DNA of 64,000 nucleotides from Acetobacter malorum. Its GTDB lineage: Bacteria; Pseudomonadota; Alphaproteobacteria; Acetobacterales; Acetobacteraceae. Within the stretch, counting starts at the first letter, position 1. Each line of letters starts with the position of its first letter. The stretch lies in NCBI RefSeq assembly GCF_001580615.1, contig NZ_LHZC01000041.1, positions 1 through 64,000 on the forward strand, written 5' to 3'. Position numbers and translations under genes: made by a program. Positions 36,707-45,233 of this stretch are shown here, piece after piece. Below the pieces are notes generated by a model. The model saw nothing but the letters and a program-made list of their open reading frames with translations. It made no database searches and was not told where the DNA came from.

Positions 36707-38404
36707 ATGCACTCCGAGCAACCCCAAAACGACTGGCAGACTGCTGGCATGGCCCGGCGGGCCAAAGGCTGGCTGGCTGGCAGCGTCACGCTGGGTGGCA
36801 TGGCGGCAGTCCTGTTTGTGCTGCACCTCACGCTGCTGGCCGGACTTGTGGATGATCTGACTTTCAAAGGCGCATCCTTTGGAGCGGAACAGCACACCGT
36901 TCTCCTGCTGCTCGCCTGCCTCGGCGGAAGCCTGTTTCTGCAATGGCTTGCTGATATGGCAGGCACAGAAGCAGGGCTGCGCATTGCCGCCCATGTGCGG
37001 CGCGATGCCCTGCGGCATTTGTTCCGTGCCGGACCTGTTGGCTGCACGACCCTTCCGGCAGGACGCATTCTCACTACCCTGACGGAAGGGGTAGATGCGC
37101 TGGAACCCTATTTTGCGCAGTACATTCCCCGTGCCGCCATGATGATCGTGCTACCACTGCTCATTCTGGCCATGGTGTTCCATCTGGACGGCTGGAGCTT
37201 TGTCATTCTGGCCTGCACGGGCCCGCTGATTCCGGTTTTCATGGCGCTGGTTGGTTATAGCGCCCAAAGCATCATGGACCGGCAATGGATGCAGCTGGTT
37301 GTGCTGGGCTCCAGCTTTCTGGATTCCCTGCGCGGGCTCAGCACGCTGCGTCTTCTGGGCCAGACAGAAGCCAGCATCAGCCGTATGGCTGCTGCGACCG
37401 ACGCACACCGGGCCAGCACGCTTTCCGTCATGAAAGTCGCCTTCCTGACCTCGGCTGTTCTGGAATTTTTCTCCAGCCTGTCCATTGCACTGGTCGCTGT
37501 GGTTTTTGGCGCGCGGCTGCTGTCTGGCACGGTTGATTTCCGTTCCGCCTTTCTGGTCCTGCTGCTGGCACCGGAATATTTCATGCCGCTCCGGGCTTTT
37601 TCCGCCAGCTACCACGCACGCCAGAATGCAACGGCAGCGGCTGCCAGGCTTGCTGATCTGTTCGCCCTGCCGGAGATGACGCAACCGGAAACCCAGTCCC
37701 GGCTGGCACACACCCGGAATCACCCGATAGCCCACCTGATGTGTTCCGACCTGACAGCAGGCTATCCGGGAAAAGCACCGGCTTTGCAGGCGCTTTCCTG
37801 CACGCTGTCACGCGGCACACTGACCGTTATCACCGGAGAAAGTGGCGCCGGGAAAACAACTTTCCTTCGTGTAATACTGGGGTTTTTACAGCCATCTTCC
37901 GGCCAGATCACCGCATGGGACACCACAGACGCCCCGGTTAAAGACTGGCAAAACCGCACCGCATGGGTGCCGCAGCGTCCTGTGATGACGATGGGGAGCA
38001 TTGCCGACACTCTGCGGCTAGCCAAACCCAACGCAACCGATGCGGAACTGCATGCCGCAGTTCAGCAGGCCGATGCGCTGGAATTTATCGAGGCCTTGCC
38101 GCAGGGTTTTGCAACCTCTGTTGGGGAAAGAGGCGCATGCCTCTCTGGTGGGCAGATCAAGCGGCTGGCGCTGGCACGTGCCCTGCTCCGCAATCCCGAT
38201 ATCCTGTGTCTGGATGAACCAACGTCCGACCTGGACCCGGCGAGTGCCCTGCGGGTCGCCCACGCCATTCGCCGCTGTGCCGCAAACAGGATTGTGCTTG
38301 TTGCCACACACCATGCCGACATGGTCGCGCTGGCTGACCAGTGCCTGCATATCAGTGACGGGCACGGAGAACTCTTCTCCGCACCACAGAGGGCCTGCGC
38401 ATGA
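36707..38404 (+). CDS. cydD: thiol reductant ABC exporter subunit CydD
   Basis: 565 residues, one half of the CydDC heterodimer needed for assembly of cytochrome bd; it has been linked to export of cysteine and glutathione and to haem. Six N-terminal helices, then Walker A GESGAGKTT, signature CLSGGQIKRLALARALL, Walker B ILCLDEPTSDLD and an H-loop in VATHHADM. Start ATG 36707 is the first in frame after the predicted promoter. Its stop overlaps cydC (ATGA). Placement before cydAB supports CydD over a generic exporter. Confidence 0.95.
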   Translation: MHSEQPQNDWQTAGMARRAKGWLAGSVTLGGMAAVLFVLHLTLLAGLVDDLTFKGASFGAEQHTVLLLLACLGGSLFLQWLADMAGTEAGLRIAAHVRRDALRHLFRAGPVGCTTLPAGRILTTLTEGVDALEPYFAQYIPRAAMMIVLPLLILAMVFHLDGWSFVILACTGPLIPVFMALVGYSAQSIMDRQWMQLVVLGSSFLDSLRGLSTLRLLGQTEASISRMAAATDAHRASTLSVMKVAFLTSAVLEFFSSLSIALVAVVFGARLLSGTVDFRSAFLVLLLAPEYFMPLRAFSASYHARQNATAAAARLADLFALPEMTQPETQSRLAHTRNHPIAHLMCSDLTAGYPGKAPALQALSCTLSRGTLTVITGESGAGKTTFLRVILGFLQPSSGQITAWDTTDAPVKDWQNRTAWVPQRPVMTMGSIADTLRLAKPNATDAELHAAVQQADALEFIEALPQGFATSVGERGACLSGGQIKRLALARALLRNPDILCLDEPTSDLDPASALRVAHAIRRCAANRIVLVATHHADMVALADQCLHISDGHGELFSAPQRACA

Positions 38405-40092
38405 ATCCCCTTACTTTCTCAGGGCTTTTCACGCGCGCTCTACGCTGGCCTGTTTTCCTAGGTCTGGCATTGGCCTGTGTGGCAGCCCTTGCCAACTTCG
38501 GGCTGCTGTTCCTGTCAGGCTGGCTGCTGGCCGGGGCGGCCTGCGCCGGAGCTGCTGGGCTTGCGGCACAGCAGGCTTTCAACATGATGCTGCCCGCAAC
38601 AGGAGTGCGCTTTTTTGCAACGCTGCGCATTGTCACACGGTATCTGGAACGACTGGTCACGCATGATGCCAGTCTGCGTCTGACGGGCCGCATGCGGGTA
38701 TGGGTTTATACAAAACTCGCCCCTCAGGCCCCCGCAGGGCTGACGGACAAACGGGGTGGCGATCTGCTCTCTCGCTTTGTGTCGGATACCGACTGTGTCG
38801 GCCAGTCCTACACAGAAACGTTCATCCCTTTTGCGCGCGCCATTCTCTGCGGTCTCGTCTTTGCGCTTATTTCAGGACTTTTCCTGAAAAGTGCAGGCCT
38901 TGTTCTGGCTCTTGGCCTGCTGGTCTGCATTCTGCCAATCCCCATGAGTGTGGGTCTCTTCTCCGCGCCACGCCTGCGCGCCCTCACCACGCAACGCGGT
39001 ACGTTTCAGGCAGACCTTGCAGACACGCTTGCTGGCTTAGGGGAGTATCTGACCTTGGGGGCTAGTGAAGCCCGGATTGAGGCGCTGGATACCCACCAGA
39101 AAACCCTACAGGCTACAGAACGGCATCTTGCCGCGCTGGAAAGCGGTGCACGCAGACTGATGACTTTTATCGGCCTGCTGACCGCTCTTTACGTCGTTAT
39201 GCTGGCGGTTCAGGGTTTTCATCAGGGTGCGCTCTCTGCACCGGAAATTCCAATGCTGGCGCTGGGGTGTCTCGCTGCGTTTGATGTCACACAACCGCTG
39301 CCCGCAGCCTGTCAGGCCTTCACCCGCGCTCGTATTGCCGCGGAGCGGCTGCAAGCCTCCTGCAATGCAGCCCCGTGCGTCCCTGCCCCTACCGCCCCCA
39401 CGCCTGCTCTGCACCACCCGCTGGATCTTATCGTTCGTGATATCTCCTTTCGGTATCCGAATACCCGGCACTGGGTTCTGGAGCATGCCAGCTTCACCAT
39501 CCACCAGGGGGAACGTGTGGCGCTTGTCGGGGCGTCCGGCATTGGCAAGAGCAGTCTGATCAGCCTTCTGAGCCGGTTCTATCCGTATCAGGGCGGTGAA
39601 ATCACATTGGGAGGGCAGGATCTTCGTCAGTTTTCAACGGAAGATCTCGCAAAAACCATCAGCGTTGCCGCACAGGATTTCCATCTGTTCAACGGCACCA
39701 TTCGGGACACACTCCGGCTTGCTGATTCGGATGCGGATGATGCGCAGATGGCTGAGGCCCTTCGTCCCGTGCAGTTGGAAGAGTTTGTGCAGCACGCGCC
39801 CCATGGGCTGGATACGCTGATTGGGGATGAAGGCCTGGCACTCTCCGGTGGTCAGGCCAGAAGACTTGTTCTTGCGCAGACCCTTTTGCGCAACACCCCA
39901 TGGCTTATTCTGGATGAGCCCACAGAAGGGCTAGACCAGAAAACCGAATACGCCCTGATGCAAGGCCTGATTTCCGCAAGGCCTGATGCCACCATCCTGT
40001 GCATTACGCATCGGCGCACCCTGATCCCGTTTATGGACCGGATACTCACGCTTGCAGGCGGCCAGATCTGCCCGGCGGAGGAGGTGCCATGA
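38401..40092 (+). CDS. cydC: thiol reductant ABC exporter subunit CydC
   Basis: 563 residues, partner of CydD. N-terminal membrane domain (FLSGWLLAGAACAG, MMLPATGVRFFATLRIVTRYLERL, the CydC-typical segments), then Walker A GASGIGKSS, signature LSGGQARRLVLAQTLL and Walker B WLILDEPTEGLD, H-loop ITHRRT. Overlaps cydD by 4 nt, indicating coupled synthesis of the two halves. Followed 54 nt later by cydA. Confidence 0.95.
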   Translation: MNPLTFSGLFTRALRWPVFLGLALACVAALANFGLLFLSGWLLAGAACAGAAGLAAQQAFNMMLPATGVRFFATLRIVTRYLERLVTHDASLRLTGRMRVWVYTKLAPQAPAGLTDKRGGDLLSRFVSDTDCVGQSYTETFIPFARAILCGLVFALISGLFLKSAGLVLALGLLVCILPIPMSVGLFSAPRLRALTTQRGTFQADLADTLAGLGEYLTLGASEARIEALDTHQKTLQATERHLAALESGARRLMTFIGLLTALYVVMLAVQGFHQGALSAPEIPMLALGCLAAFDVTQPLPAACQAFTRARIAAERLQASCNAAPCVPAPTAPTPALHHPLDLIVRDISFRYPNTRHWVLEHASFTIHQGERVALVGASGIGKSSLISLLSRFYPYQGGEITLGGQDLRQFSTEDLAKTISVAAQDFHLFNGTIRDTLRLADSDADDAQMAEALRPVQLEEFVQHAPHGLDTLIGDEGLALSGGQARRLVLAQTLLRNTPWLILDEPTEGLDQKTEYALMQGLISARPDATILCITHRRTLIPFMDRILTLAGGQICPAEEVP

Positions 40093-40146: not shown

Positions 40147-41763
40147 ATGGACATGATCAACCCGACTGTTGTTGATCTTTCACGCTTTCAGTTCGCGCTG
40201 ACAGCGCTTTACCACTTCATGTTTGTTCCCCTTACGCTGGGGCTGACATTCATGCTGGCTGCCATGGAAACAGTTTATGTCGTAACCGGCAGAAAAATTT
40301 ACAAAGATATGGTCCTGTTCTGGGGCAAGCTGTTCGGCATCAATTTTGCCCTCGGCGTTGCCACCGGCATTACCATGGAGTTTGAATTCGGCACCAACTG
40401 GTCCATGTATTCCCGCTTTTTTGGGGATATGTTCGGCACGCCTCTGGCCATTGAAGGTCTGATGGCCTTCTTTATGGAATCCACCTTTGTGGGTCTGATG
40501 TTTTTTGGCTGGGACCGCCTGAGCAAACAGGCCCATCTGGCCGTGACGTATCTGGTGGCCCTCGGCTCCAACCTGTCTGCCCTGTGGATCCTGATTGCCA
40601 ACGCCGGCATGAACGTGCCGCACGGCGCGCATTTTGACCCGGACACCATGCGCCTGCAGTTTGACAGCTTTGTAAAACTGATCTTCAGCCCGGATGCACA
40701 GGCCAAGTTCGTGCACACCTCTGTTGCCGGGTATGTCTCTGCGGCTCTGCTTGTTATGGGTGTGAGCGCGTTTTACCTGCTGCGTGGTCAGCACAGGCAG
40801 TTTGCAGCCCGGTCTTTCCGCATGGCGGCACTGTTCGGCATTATCTCCACCGTTGCCGTCATCACGCTGGGCGATGTTCTGGGCCGTGAAGACTATATGG
40901 AACAGCCGACCAAAATCGCTGCCATTGAAGGCCTGTGGCACACCAGCAAACCGCCGTATGAACCGTGGATTCTGGCTGCCCTGCCGGATGACGCCAAACA
41001 GGAAAACCATTTTGAAATCGGTGTTCCGTTTGTTCTCACACCGCTTATTACGCATGACTTCAACACGCCTATCCGTGGCATGCACGAGCTGGAAGATGCT
41101 GCCGCACCGCGTATTGAATCCGGGATTGCCGCTGTCTCCGCCCTGCGCCGATATCAGGAAACACACCAGCAGGCTGATCTGGACGCATTCAAGGCGCATG
41201 AGGCCGACCTCGGCTTTGGCTTTCTGGCCACCCGCCACGCCCCGAATCAGGACGTAACCGCCATTCCGGCTGACGCCCTGCAGAGCGTTGTGGAACAGAC
41301 CAAACCGGACATTCTTCCGAACGTGTTTGTCACCTTCTGGTCTTTCCGTATCATGGTGTTTCTGGCGCTGTATTTCTTCGCGCTGTTTGCCATTTCCGCT
41401 TACCTGAGCCTGAAGAACAAGCTGGAGCGGAACAAGCTCATCCTTAAGGCCTGCATGTGGTCTATCCCGCTGCCTATTCTGGCAACGGAATTCGGATGGA
41501 TTACAGCAGAAGCTGGCCGCCAGCCCTGGACGGTGTTCAACACGCTGCCGACCTTCCTGTCCGCTTCCACGCACAGCACGTCCTACATGGTGTTCTCTCT
41601 GGCAGGCTTTGCGCTGCTCTACAGCATCTTTATCGCGGCAGAACTGTATCTGATGTTCAAGTTCGCACGCCTTGGCCCGGAAGCGCATGACGCCCCGCAC
41701 AGTGATGATGCGTATGCCGCACACTGCGCTGTTGTCGGCACCCCGCATGCCTCAGGCCACTGA
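40147..41763 (+). CDS. cydA: cytochrome bd ubiquinol oxidase subunit I
   Basis: 538 residues, the haem-bearing subunit of the bd quinol oxidase in the inner membrane. His23 in LYHFMFVPLTLG and His190 in FVHTSVAGY are at the positions of the E. coli haem ligands His19 and His186; GRQPWTVFNTLPT is the conserved loop. The quinol-binding periplasmic region between about residues 255 and 400 is long (DYMEQPTKIAAIEGLW onward), so it belongs to the long Q-loop class like E. coli bd-I, not the short-loop CIO. Weak SD AAGGA precedes the ATG. Confidence 0.96.
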   Translation: MDMINPTVVDLSRFQFALTALYHFMFVPLTLGLTFMLAAMETVYVVTGRKIYKDMVLFWGKLFGINFALGVATGITMEFEFGTNWSMYSRFFGDMFGTPLAIEGLMAFFMESTFVGLMFFGWDRLSKQAHLAVTYLVALGSNLSALWILIANAGMNVPHGAHFDPDTMRLQFDSFVKLIFSPDAQAKFVHTSVAGYVSAALLVMGVSAFYLLRGQHRQFAARSFRMAALFGIISTVAVITLGDVLGREDYMEQPTKIAAIEGLWHTSKPPYEPWILAALPDDAKQENHFEIGVPFVLTPLITHDFNTPIRGMHELEDAAAPRIESGIAAVSALRRYQETHQQADLDAFKAHEADLGFGFLATRHAPNQDVTAIPADALQSVVEQTKPDILPNVFVTFWSFRIMVFLALYFFALFAISAYLSLKNKLERNKLILKACMWSIPLPILATEFGWITAEAGRQPWTVFNTLPTFLSASTHSTSYMVFSLAGFALLYSIFIAAELYLMFKFARLGPEAHDAPHSDDAYAAHCAVVGTPHASGH

Positions 41764-41790: not shown

Positions 41791-42930
41791 ATGGAACTTT
41801 ATGCACTTCTCAAACTGATCTGGGCGGCTCTGCTGTGCGTGCTGCTAATCGGCCTGGGGCTGATGGTCGGCATGGATATGGGCGTTGGCACCCTGCTCCG
41901 CTTTGTGGGCCGGAATGATGGAGAGCGCCGCACGGCCCTTAACATCATCGGCCCGCACTGGGATGGGAATCAGGTCTGGTTCATTCTGGGAGGCGGTGCG
42001 ATTTTTGCCGCCTTCCCCACCCTGTATGCCACGTCCTTTTCCGTTTTTTATGTCGTAATGATCCTGCTGCTATTCAGCATGATCCTGCGGCCTGTCGCCT
42101 TTGAATATCGCTCCAAGGCGGACTCCCACCTCTGGCGCGCTAGCTGGGACTGGGTGTTTCTGGTTTCCGGTTTCCTGCCCATGTTCATTTATGGCGCGGC
42201 CTTCGGGAATATCCTGCACGGCGTTGGCTACCATTTTGGCTGGACAGGGCAGTATTATCAGGACAGCTCCTTTTTCTCATATCTGCTGAACCCGTTTGCC
42301 ATCCTGTGCGGCCTGATGTCGGTTGCCCTGAGTGTGTATCAGGGTGGCGTGATGCTGATGCTGCGGGCAGAAAACCCGATTCATGACCGCGCCCGTCGCT
42401 ACGCCCTGCGCGGCGGCCTGACGGCAGCAGTGCTGTTTATCATTGGGGGTTTCTTTATTACCCGTATGCAGGGCTTTGTGTTCACCGCCCCGGTGGACCC
42501 GGCTATGCCGGCTTCCCCCATGCACGGTCAGCACGTCGCCATGGTTGCCGGGGGCTGGCTGCATAATTACGCTGCCCACCCAGTCCTCTGGCTTCTGCCC
42601 CTGCTTGGGCTGGCCAGCATGGTTGGCGGAACACTGGCCGCACGGATGAATAAAGTCATTCTTGCCTGGTGGATTGGGCTTGGTTCATGGATTGGCACCA
42701 TTGGCACGGTTGCTGCGGCGATGTTCCCGTTCTTCATGCCTTCCACCACCACACCGGACCAGAGCCTGACCATCTGGAACAGCTCCGCCAGTGCTTATGG
42801 CCTGACCTGCATGCTGGTTGTCGCGCTGATCTTTGTGCCCATCATCCTCTGCTACACCTCATGGTGCTATTACGTGATGCGCGGCAAGGTTCACACGGCG
42901 GACATCGTTAACGATAGCCACAGCTACTAA
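41791..42930 (+). CDS. cydB: cytochrome bd ubiquinol oxidase subunit II
   Basis: 379 residues, identical in length to the E. coli subunit. Starts with the conserved helix LKLIWAALLCVLLIGLGLMVGMDMGVGTLL, with GPHWDGNQVWFILGGGAIFAAFP next; WLHNYAAHPVLW and MFPFFMPS further on are typical. AAGGTCC precedes the ATG. Lies 27 nt after cydA. Confidence 0.96.
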   Translation: MELYALLKLIWAALLCVLLIGLGLMVGMDMGVGTLLRFVGRNDGERRTALNIIGPHWDGNQVWFILGGGAIFAAFPTLYATSFSVFYVVMILLLFSMILRPVAFEYRSKADSHLWRASWDWVFLVSGFLPMFIYGAAFGNILHGVGYHFGWTGQYYQDSSFFSYLLNPFAILCGLMSVALSVYQGGVMLMLRAENPIHDRARRYALRGGLTAAVLFIIGGFFITRMQGFVFTAPVDPAMPASPMHGQHVAMVAGGWLHNYAAHPVLWLLPLLGLASMVGGTLAARMNKVILAWWIGLGSWIGTIGTVAAAMFPFFMPSTTTPDQSLTIWNSSASAYGLTCMLVVALIFVPIILCYTSWCYYVMRGKVHTADIVNDSHSY

Positions 42931-42944
42931 AAGGGAACTTTACC

Positions 42945-43148
42945 ATGCAACTGTTACGTCTGGCCGGTCTGGCCGCTGTTCTGGTCGTCTCCCTGCTGTT
43001 TGCCGTTTTTGTGGGGGATCAGGGCCCCTGGTACTTCGCGTGGGTGATTGGTACCATCATGATCATTCTCATTTCCGGTGCTGGTGCAATCCTGCTGGAT
43101 GCGCAGCAGGACGGCAAAATCGGCTCCTCTTCCGATCAGGAGGTTTAA
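42945..43148 (+). CDS. cydX: CydX with an extra N-terminal membrane helix
   Basis: 67 residues, two predicted membrane helices. The second half, from residue 30 (WYFAWVIGTIMIILISGAGA ... GKIG), aligns with CydX of E. coli, whose start is WYFAWILGT and which also ends with a GK-containing polar tail. CydX stabilises haem in the bd oxidase. The E. coli protein is about 37 residues; here about 28 residues with a full hydrophobic helix (LAGLAAVLVVSLLFAVFVG) precede the CydX part. GGGA lies 8-9 nt before the ATG, so the extension is probably translated. Could also be a YbgE-like helix fused to CydX. Confidence 0.85.
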   Translation: MQLLRLAGLAAVLVVSLLFAVFVGDQGPWYFAWVIGTIMIILISGAGAILLDAQQDGKIGSSSDQEV

Positions 43149-43150
43149 GC

Positions 43151-43249
43151 ATGCTCGGTGATCTTGAAGGAATAATTCTGTTTATTCCCGCCTTTTATCT
43201 TCTGCTTTACATTATTGCCTATCGGGTTGTGCGTAAGCTTTTCCCGTAA
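43151..43249 (+). CDS. 32-residue single-helix membrane microprotein, last gene of the cyd operon
   Basis: Starts 2 nt after the cydX stop with a perfect AGGAGG (43138-43143) 7 nt upstream of the ATG, the strongest ribosome binding site in the operon. The peptide is MLGDLEGI, then a hydrophobic helix of about 16 residues (ILFIPAFYLLLYIIAY), then a basic end RVVRKLFP, so the C-terminus should face the cytoplasm. A terminator follows 28 nt later. It resembles no microprotein I recognise, though small accessory subunits (CydX, CydH/CydY, CydS) are known in bd oxidases. Likely an additional oxidase subunit or assembly factor; function inferred only from context. Confidence 0.75.
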   Translation: MLGDLEGIILFIPAFYLLLYIIAYRVVRKLFP

Positions 43250-43277
43250 CAGGCTCTGTGCAGAAAGGCCTTTTCCA

Positions 43278-43309
43278 CCCCACGCCAGACCTCTGGTGTG
43301 GGGTTTTTT
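43278..43309 (+). terminator. intrinsic terminator of the cyd operon
   Basis: CCCCACGCCAG (43278-43288) and CTGGTGTGGGG (43293-43303), one G-U pair, loop ACCT, then T6. Confidence 0.92.
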
Positions 43310-43459: not shown

Positions 43460-43496
43460 CCGCTCTCATGCCTTTTCGCACCAGGCATGAGAGCGG
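43460..43496 (-). terminator. 14-bp hairpin across the SulP stop codon
   Basis: CCGCTCTCATGCCT (43460-43473) and AGGCATGAGAGCGG (43483-43496) are perfectly complementary with a 9-nt loop. The TGA stop lies inside one arm and the last codons in the other. No immediate U-run follows, so it may be a stabilising 3' structure or a factor-assisted terminator. Confidence 0.5.
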
Positions 43497-45142
43497 GCCG
43501 CGGCCACTGCGGTATGGAGCTGGGCATAAATATTCCCCTCCCCCAGAACAGCACTAATCCGATGGCGATCCATATCGGCCCGTAAAAACGGATTAACCCG
43601 CCCAAAAGCAATCAGAACAGATTGGGCCTGCAATTCCTGCAAAACGGTACGCAGAAGGCTGGCGGCAGAGTAATCAATATCCGTAATGGCGCTGGCATCC
43701 ACCACAACACAGCGAACCGGGTTGGGGGCTGTTGTAATCAGAAAGCGGATATCATCTGCAAAGCGGTTACAATTTGCATAGAATAAATCCGCACAAAACC
43801 GATACACAATCAGCCCCGGTTCCGTTTCAACTCCGGCTTTGACGGGAGAGGCCTCCAGCAGCTTTGTCTGCGCATCTTCCTGCAAAACCATGGTATGTGG
43901 TTCATAACTGTGCCGCACATGGCGAAACAGGGAGAGCACAATCGCCACCAGAATACCCTGCTCCACACCAACACCTACAACCGTAGCAGCGGTGATCAGC
44001 GCCAGACCGAACTCTCCGGGGCTTTCGTGCCGTATGCGCCATAAGGCGCGCAGGTCAATCATCCCCATCGCGACACTGAAAACAATAGCCCCCAGCACAC
44101 ACCGTGGCAGATAGCGCAAAGGACTCGTGAAAAAGAGCAAAACAACCAACGTGACAGCGGCAAAAACAAGTTGCGCCTTCTGGCTACGGGCTCCGGCCTG
44201 CACGGCCATGGCTGTCTGCGTCGGGCTGCCATTGACGGTAAATGTTCCGCTCAGACCGGCCAGAGCATTTGCAGCACTCAGCCCCAGAATATCCCTGTTG
44301 GCATCAACATCTTCCTGAAACTTATACGCGTAGGTTCGGGATGTTGCAGCACTTTGCGCAATAATGACGAACACGCAGGAAGCCGCCACCGGCAACAGGC
44401 TGAGCATGTCATTCCATCCCACCCTAGGAAAATGCAGAGACGGCAAGCCGCCAGACAATGGGCCAACCAGCGCAACACCGCACGCTTCCAGCCCCAGCGC
44501 CCAACTGGCCGCAATACTGCCGACCACCAGAACCAATGCCAGCGGCTTATGCGGCGCAAATTTCTCTCCAGCGTATAAAAGCAGGCACATGACAAGTGAG
44601 ATTGCAGCGCTCAATGGCGCAAGATGCGGGAGCGCCTGCAACAAATCCACAAGTTGGAGAAAAGGGTTATGCGCTGTGGCCTGTAAGCCCAGCATGTCAT
44701 ACGTCATGGCAATGCCAACCTGCAGGCCAACACCCGCCATGAACCCCACCAGCACAGTGCGGGAAAGGAAGTCAGCCAGACACCCCAGCCTGAACAGCCG
44801 CGCCGCCAGCAGGAACCCGGCGCTCAACAGCGCGACCATGCTGACAAGCGCCATGTAATGCGCACTGCCCGGCGGGGCCATGCGCGACAGAGCACTGGAA
44901 AAAATAGCTGCGGTTGCAGAATCTGCCGCCACGACCAGATGCCGGGAAGACCCGACACCAGCAAACGCCACGAGTGGTAGCAAAACTGTATAAAGCCCGG
45001 TTACAGCAGGCATCCCGGCAATACGGGCATATCCCAGAACCTGCGGGATATTCATACAGGCAAGAGAAAGCCCCGCCAGACTATCGCGCGCAGTGCTGGC
45101 CCAGCCTCCCTGCCCCCACCGCCTGAACAGGTCTTTCAGCAT
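43466..45142 (-). CDS. SulP family anion transporter with STAS domain
   Basis: 558 residues counted from the ATG. The N-terminal 400 residues are the membrane domain, with the family segments ACMNIPQVLGYARIAGMPAV, FVTVNGSPTQTAMA-like FTVNGSPTQTA and a hydrophobic C-terminal helix bundle; the last 130 residues form a STAS domain (RCVVVDASAITDIDYSAASLL). SulP proteins carry sulfate, bicarbonate or dicarboxylates; no carbonic anhydrase gene is adjacent. Start ATG 45142 has AGGG at good spacing; GTG at 45151 is an alternative. Confidence 0.92.
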   Translation of the reverse strand: MLKDLFRRWGQGGWASTARDSLAGLSLACMNIPQVLGYARIAGMPAVTGLYTVLLPLVAFAGVGSSRHLVVAADSATAAIFSSALSRMAPPGSAHYMALVSMVALLSAGFLLAARLFRLGCLADFLSRTVLVGFMAGVGLQVGIAMTYDMLGLQATAHNPFLQLVDLLQALPHLAPLSAAISLVMCLLLYAGEKFAPHKPLALVLVVGSIAASWALGLEACGVALVGPLSGGLPSLHFPRVGWNDMLSLLPVAASCVFVIIAQSAATSRTYAYKFQEDVDANRDILGLSAANALAGLSGTFTVNGSPTQTAMAVQAGARSQKAQLVFAAVTLVVLLFFTSPLRYLPRCVLGAIVFSVAMGMIDLRALWRIRHESPGEFGLALITAATVVGVGVEQGILVAIVLSLFRHVRHSYEPHTMVLQEDAQTKLLEASPVKAGVETEPGLIVYRFCADLFYANCNRFADDIRFLITTAPNPVRCVVVDASAITDIDYSAASLLRTVLQELQAQSVLIAFGRVNPFLRADMDRHRISAVLGEGNIYAQLHTAVAAARSHAWCEKA

Positions 45143-45233
45143 CTTGCCCACCCTACTGGTATTCCGATCTCTCAGGGCTTTTTGCCGCCATTCCGGCGCT
45201 GCGTCACCTTATTTAAAAATACGCATTCTCCCA

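Follow-up and report, generated by a model that had tools for sequence, protein, structure and literature searches.

The window analyzed here is the whole 64,000-nucleotide stretch from Acetobacter malorum. On its forward strand it carries a run of cytochrome bd genes, which ends in a 32-codon open reading frame (referred to below as the ORF) and a terminator-like hairpin. The features of the locus are as follows.

36707 to 38404, + strand: CydD-like half of an ABC exporter, with which the run begins (Pfam ABC_tran and ABC_membrane; the name CydD is given from position)
38401 to 40092, + strand: ABC exporter half, CydC-like (Pfam; name given from position)
40147 to 41763, + strand: cydA, subunit I (PF01654, E = 5.7e-158)
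41791 to 42930, + strand: cydB, subunit II (PF02322, E = 1.5e-93; TIGR00203)
42945 to 43148, + strand: cydX-like gene, 67 amino acids with two hydrophobic stretches, the second of them CydX-like (WYFAW)
43138 to 43143, + strand: AGGAGG ribosome-binding site of the ORF, 7 nt before its ATG, overlapping the last cydX codons
43151 to 43249, + strand: 32-codon ORF, an apparently new single-helix membrane protein family (from conservation, selection, and helix profile)
43277 to 43304, + strand: intrinsic terminator-like hairpin with 12 pairs, 8 of them G-C, and a T-run after it, 27 nt past the ORF stop

The nearest solved structures to the CydA of this locus are those of Escherichia coli bd-II (7ose_A, E = 3.7e-161) and bd-I (6rko_A, E = 3e-160). 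The CydX-like protein scores 16.6 bits with one CydX model and 15.9 bits with the other, below their curated cut-offs of 26.2 and 31.6 bits, respectively, so annotation that relies on such models may overlook this cydX as well as the ORF. Its second part nevertheless matches E. coli CydX when a family profile is used (6rko_X, E = 1.8e-4), and a two-helix CydX of acetic acid bacteria has already been described (PMC5322542). Just past the terminator lies a convergent gene for a SulP-type sulfate permease with a STAS domain (43466 to 45151, − strand). Elsewhere in the same genome (contig C28, L143), a second cydB-type gene is followed by a small DUF2474 (CydZ) ORF at 372 to 509 on the − strand, which matches PF10617 at an E value of 2.7e-9; this second locus is probably a CIO-type operon.

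The ORF at the end of the cyd run starts with an ATG at 43151 to 43153, stops with a TAA at 43247 to 43249, and encodes 32 residues (MLGDLEGIILFIPAFYLLLYIIAYRVVRKLFP). The cydX stop codon (TAA) occupies 43146 to 43148, which leaves a gap of 2 nt. The original prediction had placed a microprotein gene 2 nt after cydX, behind an AGGAGG at 7-nt spacing and with a terminator just after it, and the coordinates agree with it on all of these points. An exact match of at least 4 nt to the anti-Shine-Dalgarno complement lies upstream of the ORF at 61 of 62 loci, which is a raw count without a shuffled comparison. Under a strict rule, a hairpin followed by a T-run was found within 150 nt after the ORF at 32 of 62 loci, compared to 1.3% of base-shuffled copies. 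The same rule flagged a hairpin at none of the 62 loci when applied to the region from 60 nt upstream of the ORF through its first 30 nt. A loose hairpin scan found 8 hairpins versus 7.7 in shuffles, a count that is uninformative. The ORF is most likely the last gene of the cyd transcription unit.

A Ka/Ks comparison among relatives, suggested with the original prediction as a check, revealed a strong synonymous excess. Across 30 disjoint pairs drawn from 72 unique DNA sequences, the ORF frame contained 206 synonymous versus 105 nonsynonymous differences (pN/pS of 0.157, binomial P = 1.7e-57), and the two shifted frames gave pN/pS values of 1.34 and 2.71. The median dN/dS was 0.145 for ORF pairs with a pS below 0.6, which come from the genus Acetobacter. 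Over 1,891 pairs, mean identity was 65% within the ORF, 48% over the next 99 nt, and 47% in shuffled sequence. Together, conservation that extends only up to the stop codon and selection that is specific to the frame indicate that the ORF is a coding gene, and they rule out both a chance ORF and noncoding conservation. The ORF is very short and its Shine-Dalgarno sequence sits inside cydX, features that could suit a sequence without a functional protein product, such as a chance ORF, a translated tail, or a regulatory leader. Considering that selection acts at the amino acid level, that start, length, and stop are conserved, and that conservation ends at the stop codon, we regard such a reading as very improbable. 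These data indicate that the ORF is a real, conserved protein-coding gene under strong purifying selection. There are exceptions to this pattern: one Gluconacetobacter pair (L113 and L117) differs by four nonsynonymous and no synonymous changes, with the tails of both proteins changed and longer, and in one Acetobacter genome (G003, loci L011 and L034) the ORF meets a stop after residue 25 while the CydX frame is open.

The ORF product has one hydrophobic stretch, with a best 19-residue Kyte-Doolittle mean of 2.24 from residue 5, and a basic C terminus (R25, R28, and K29), both as originally predicted. We examined these properties in 67 unique proteins of the family, filtered for a length of 31 to 38 residues and for M at position 1, G or T at 3, D or G at 4, and E at 6. 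The shortened L011 and L034 and the divergent L061, L062, L149, and L150 were left out of this set. The lowest 19-residue hydrophobic mean among the 67 was 1.74, which is enough for a membrane helix, and all 67 have an N terminus with a net charge of −1 or −2 and a C terminus with a net charge of +1 to +4. By the positive-inside rule, this charge pattern suggests a topology with the N terminus outside and the C terminus inside.

The conserved residues (E6, I9, P13, Y16, Y20, and A23) lie on one helical face, with a spacing of 3-4-3-4-3. Y24, which is less well conserved, is on the same side of the helix; the invariance of M1 and E6 among the 67 proteins is partly built in by the filter pattern. 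Permutation of the helix face, run for four alternative stretches, gave P values of 0.005, 0.009, 0.020, and 0.051. By eye, residues equivalent to E6 and P13 can be recognized in the divergent L062, L149, and L150, as can an aromatic residue at position 16. The shortened ORF of L011 and L034 keeps the conserved face and loses the basic tail. Conservation along a single face of a solitary helix is the trace expected of a protein contact within the membrane. When covariation with CydA, CydB, and CydX was calculated from 49 nonredundant sequences (Neff of 14), the top scores were spread over CydA and CydB, and they probably represent clade differences.

The original prediction hung on conservation of the reading frame downstream of cydX in relatives, and the frame is indeed kept beside every strong two-helix CydX match in the family. 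Within the genus Acetobacter, CydX and the ORF were both matched in the same 35 of 49 genomes and neither was matched in the same other 14. The CydX search returned 30 loci for these 35 genomes, 29 of which were parsed automatically and the 30th (L009) read separately. The ORF directly follows CydX at all 30, with the full 32 codons at 29 and an end after 25 at L011. In the family as a whole, the ORF profile matched 49 of 299 Acetobacteraceae genomes at an E value of ≤0.1, and the two-helix CydX profile matched 46 of the 299 at ≤0.001. Every family genome with a strong two-helix CydX also has the ORF (44/44, from 18 genera), and the two genes are side by side, as judged by eye from the coordinates of the two profile searches.

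The other five ORF-profile matches consist of four weak ones (E values of 0.009 to 0.064, with the region fetched for G152 alone) and one in G241 (L145). The G241 match is strong but is a remnant, with the start region gone and the invariant proline changed. No readable CydX is present in the approximately 480 nt upstream of it, where the contig ends, and the remnant seems to reflect decay once the ORF was cut off from the operon. The other two CydX-profile matches are both weak. The one in G254 was rejected as a DUF2306-like protein just under the Pfam cut-off, and the one in G307 (L147) is a one-helix CydX whose gene directly follows cydB and has no ORF behind it. A scan of named genomes gave 61 loci, at all of which CydX is directly upstream of the ORF, at −4 to +25 nt. 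These loci belong to Acetobacter, Komagataeibacter, Gluconobacter, Gluconacetobacter, Acidomonas, Saccharibacter, Acidocella, Acidiphilium, and MAGs, some of the latter titled just Acetobacteraceae, Rhodospirillales, or Proteobacteria bacterium. The scan used one N-terminal pattern and misses relatives with another N terminus, of which L062, L149, and L150 are examples. No relative of the CydX was found in plasmid records.

Using the one-helix CydX of G307 as the query, we obtained matches in 16 of 70 family genomes at an E value of ≤0.01, 14 of them at <1e-6; the two weak matches (G071 and G115, E > 0.001) are carriers of the two-helix form. The ORF was found in none of the 14 one-helix CydX genomes, all of which had been sampled by the family-wide ORF profile search. 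Twelve loci (L153 to L164) were returned for these 14 genomes and 10 were parsed, L161 and L163 having failed the motif. At the 10 parsed loci, CydX has one helix and 34 to 43 residues, no hydrophobic ORF of 24 to 60 codons starts within 200 nt after it, and the motif of the ORF is absent. The Acetobacteraceae therefore hold two kinds of cydABX operon, one with a one-helix CydX and no ORF and one with a two-helix CydX and the ORF. Any claim about the ORF is accordingly confined to the two-helix type and is not general to Acetobacteraceae bd operons.

Searches beyond the family gave little. A class-wide search matched 7 of 385 genomes at an E value of ≤0.01, namely three family members and four partial, weak matches, two of which have internal stops. 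A phylum-wide search matched 5 of 398 genomes at ≤0.001, namely four family members and G910, in which the match is 22 positions long and no cyd gene was seen beside it. Among these 385 class and 398 phylum genomes, a few family members included, there was no convincing relative of the ORF outside the Acetobacteraceae. In one genome of another family (G616, L131), a two-helix CydX is followed at once by an ABC exporter gene, identified by eye, with no ORF. At two loci from another family of the same class (L134 and L136), a one-helix CydX is followed by a longer hydrophobic frame that by eye recalls YbgE.

In broad terms, the ORF encodes a conserved one-helix protein alongside cydAB, and we compared it to the known small proteins of bd oxidases. 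In Pfam and NCBIfam, no bd small-subunit model matched the ORF or 30 of its relatives at an E value of ≤1; the isolated single-row matches (best E value of 0.048), those in PHROGs among them, involved unrelated families. None of the PDB chains matched the ORF profile at ≤10, though the set contains the E. coli CydX and CydH chains. Like the ORF product, CydX and AppX are tiny one-helix proteins, and their genes follow cydB in bd operons of the E. coli type. However, the ORF comes besides its own upstream cydX, lacks WYFAW, and encodes an acidic start and a basic end. The CydX models PF08173 and TIGR02106 were unmatched by the ORF or the 30 relatives at an E value of ≤1, and when the profiles of the ORF and CydX families were compared, the alignment covered a single column; the ORF was thus rejected as a CydX. 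A tryptophan is reported to be conserved in CydX, CydY, and CydZ (PMC4325964). The ORF product lacks it, and only 1 of the 67 proteins has any tryptophan within residues 1 to 23.

CydH (YnhF, NF033411), which goes by the name CydY in one report (PMC6853902), is likewise a second one-helix protein beside CydX and similar in length (29 residues, compared to 32 for the ORF product). It is encoded away from the operon, however, and E. coli CydH contains no proline or tyrosine. NF033411 was unmatched, and an hhalign comparison to E. coli CydH yielded an alignment of a single column at a probability of 0.1. The CydY of Allen et al. (2014) and CioY of Campylobacter resemble the ORF product as one-helix proteins encoded after cydB, and CioY is reported to keep a conserved proline and tyrosine (PMC11955535). 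In contrast to the ORF, they occur where cydX is missing and have a conserved tryptophan; the ORF is additional to CydX, with cydX present at 61/61 loci, and its product has no such tryptophan. It is the published description of CioY, not its sequence, that sets it apart. CydZ (DUF2474, PF10617) is a one-helix protein that also ends bd-family operons, but the operons from which it is reported have a short Q-loop and lack cydX, and the ORF is unmatched in Pfam. PF10617 was unmatched by 30/30 relatives at an E value of ≤1 and detected the positive control, the DUF2474 ORF that follows the second cydB-type gene of the genome. CydS of Geobacillus and CydP of Burkholderia are small membrane proteins associated with bd oxidase as well. 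CydS is described as occupying the CydX site (PMC8951039), and the cydP gene reportedly precedes cydA in Burkholderia; CydP is set apart from the ORF by this gene position, not by direct comparison.

Taken together, the ORF product is best explained as a constant single-helix accessory subunit of the two-helix-CydX type of Acetobacteraceae bd quinol oxidase, a reading to which we assign a probability of roughly 0.78 and in which association with the complex is predicted from genomics. The original prediction had left the choice between an accessory subunit and an assembly factor. The conserved frame and the fixed linkage to two-helix cydX best support the former, for one type of operon and not for bd operons in general. 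According to this model, ribosomes on the operon mRNA would translate the ORF immediately after CydX, and the product would insert in the inner membrane with its acidic N terminus outside and its basic C terminus inside. The face formed by the conserved residues would pack on the CydA/CydB/CydX core and stabilize it. Physical binding, the stabilizing role, and the site are what we infer for the product. Several observations weigh against a subunit. The fixed co-occurrence could reflect the descent of one operon type and not the function of the pair, and the family also has one-helix CydX operons, from which the ORF is absent. The two-helix CydX of L131 also lacks it, and the early stop in G003 and the L113/L117 pair depart from the general pattern of constraint.

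Two sites can be envisaged for such a subunit, and we consider them about equally likely. The helix could be a functional stand-in for CydH in the TM1/TM9 groove of CydA, shielding heme b595 from lipid, O2, or quinone. The precedent is E. coli bd-I, in which one further single-helix subunit besides CydX is reported in this groove and CydH blocks access to heme b595 (PMC6853902, PMC8951039). The CydA here is E. coli-like, the two small proteins are similar in size, and no CydH above the curated cut-off was found in 61 genomes, including the source genome, by a search that matched 11 of 14 control genomes at a loose threshold and one above the cut-off. Possible as it is, this placement must contend with the undetectable sequence relation to CydH, with the reported function of E. 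coli bd-II without CydH (PMC8585947), and with the lack of CydH from the same-class genomes searched too, which makes its absence nonspecific. Moreover, the ORF is missing from the one-helix CydX operons, whose CydA would be expected to form this groove as well. The other site, which we hold with similar caution, is beside the extra N-terminal helix of CydX, where the ORF product would be a partner of that helix and act at the CydX/CydA edge or on dimerization. The ORF accompanies every strong two-helix CydX and no one-helix CydX in the family, and CydX is reported to mediate the E. coli bd-I dimer (PMC13189123). Yet L131 has the two-helix CydX on its own, covariation does not single out CydX, and the pairing could come from shared descent. 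The contrast with the one-helix operons lowers the odds of the CydH site and raises those of a CydX partner, and the co-occurrence of the ORF with the extra CydX helix leads us to rate a contact at the CydX/CydA edge as roughly as probable as placement in the CydH groove.

The same linkage evidence would also fit an assembly factor or chaperone that aids heme insertion or subunit assembly and is not a permanent subunit, and CydX itself is reported to be necessary for assembly and stability (PMC6853902, PMC8951039). We think this role unlikely, since one conserved helix face with no soluble part better fits a permanent helix contact, and the one-helix bd proteins with reported structures (CydX, AppX, CydS, and CydH) are subunits (PMC6853902, PMC8585947, PMC8951039). 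Returning to the accessory subunit, we tentatively suggest that two helices were added together, one at the front of CydX and one from the ORF, to give a distinct four-polypeptide Acetobacteraceae bd oxidase that differs from E. coli bd-I as well as from the one-helix-CydX bd oxidase of the same family. In this enzyme, the ORF helix may do the job of CydH from inside the operon, with an unrelated sequence.

One-helix accessory proteins of bd oxidase are known as a kind, and the co-immunoprecipitation reported for Campylobacter CioY with CioA (PMC11955535) is a precedent for the ORF product. What appear to be new are this ORF family, its place additional to CydX, and its coupling to two-helix CydX. 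Allen et al. (2014) describe a screen of long Q-loop operons without cydX, which led to CydY, and a survey of small ORFs after cydB in all species, which led to CydZ, and they mention further small hydrophobic proteins, left without names, that are encoded beside cydAB (PMC4325964). The ORF could be among the latter, but no mention of it by name was found there. No description of the ORF was found in the open-access literature searched, which leaves most subscription papers outside its scope. As far as our searches reach, the ORF represents a real, unclassified family of bd-operon microproteins that is limited to the two-helix-CydX type in the Acetobacteraceae. A much-studied respiratory enzyme has a conserved partner that is seemingly undescribed in the literature searched. 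If the ORF product is a subunit, expression of cydABX alone would yield an incomplete two-helix-type bd oxidase. Within one family, operons that combine a two-helix CydX with the ORF can be set against those that have a one-helix CydX and no ORF, a natural comparison by which the role of extra bd helices becomes directly testable.
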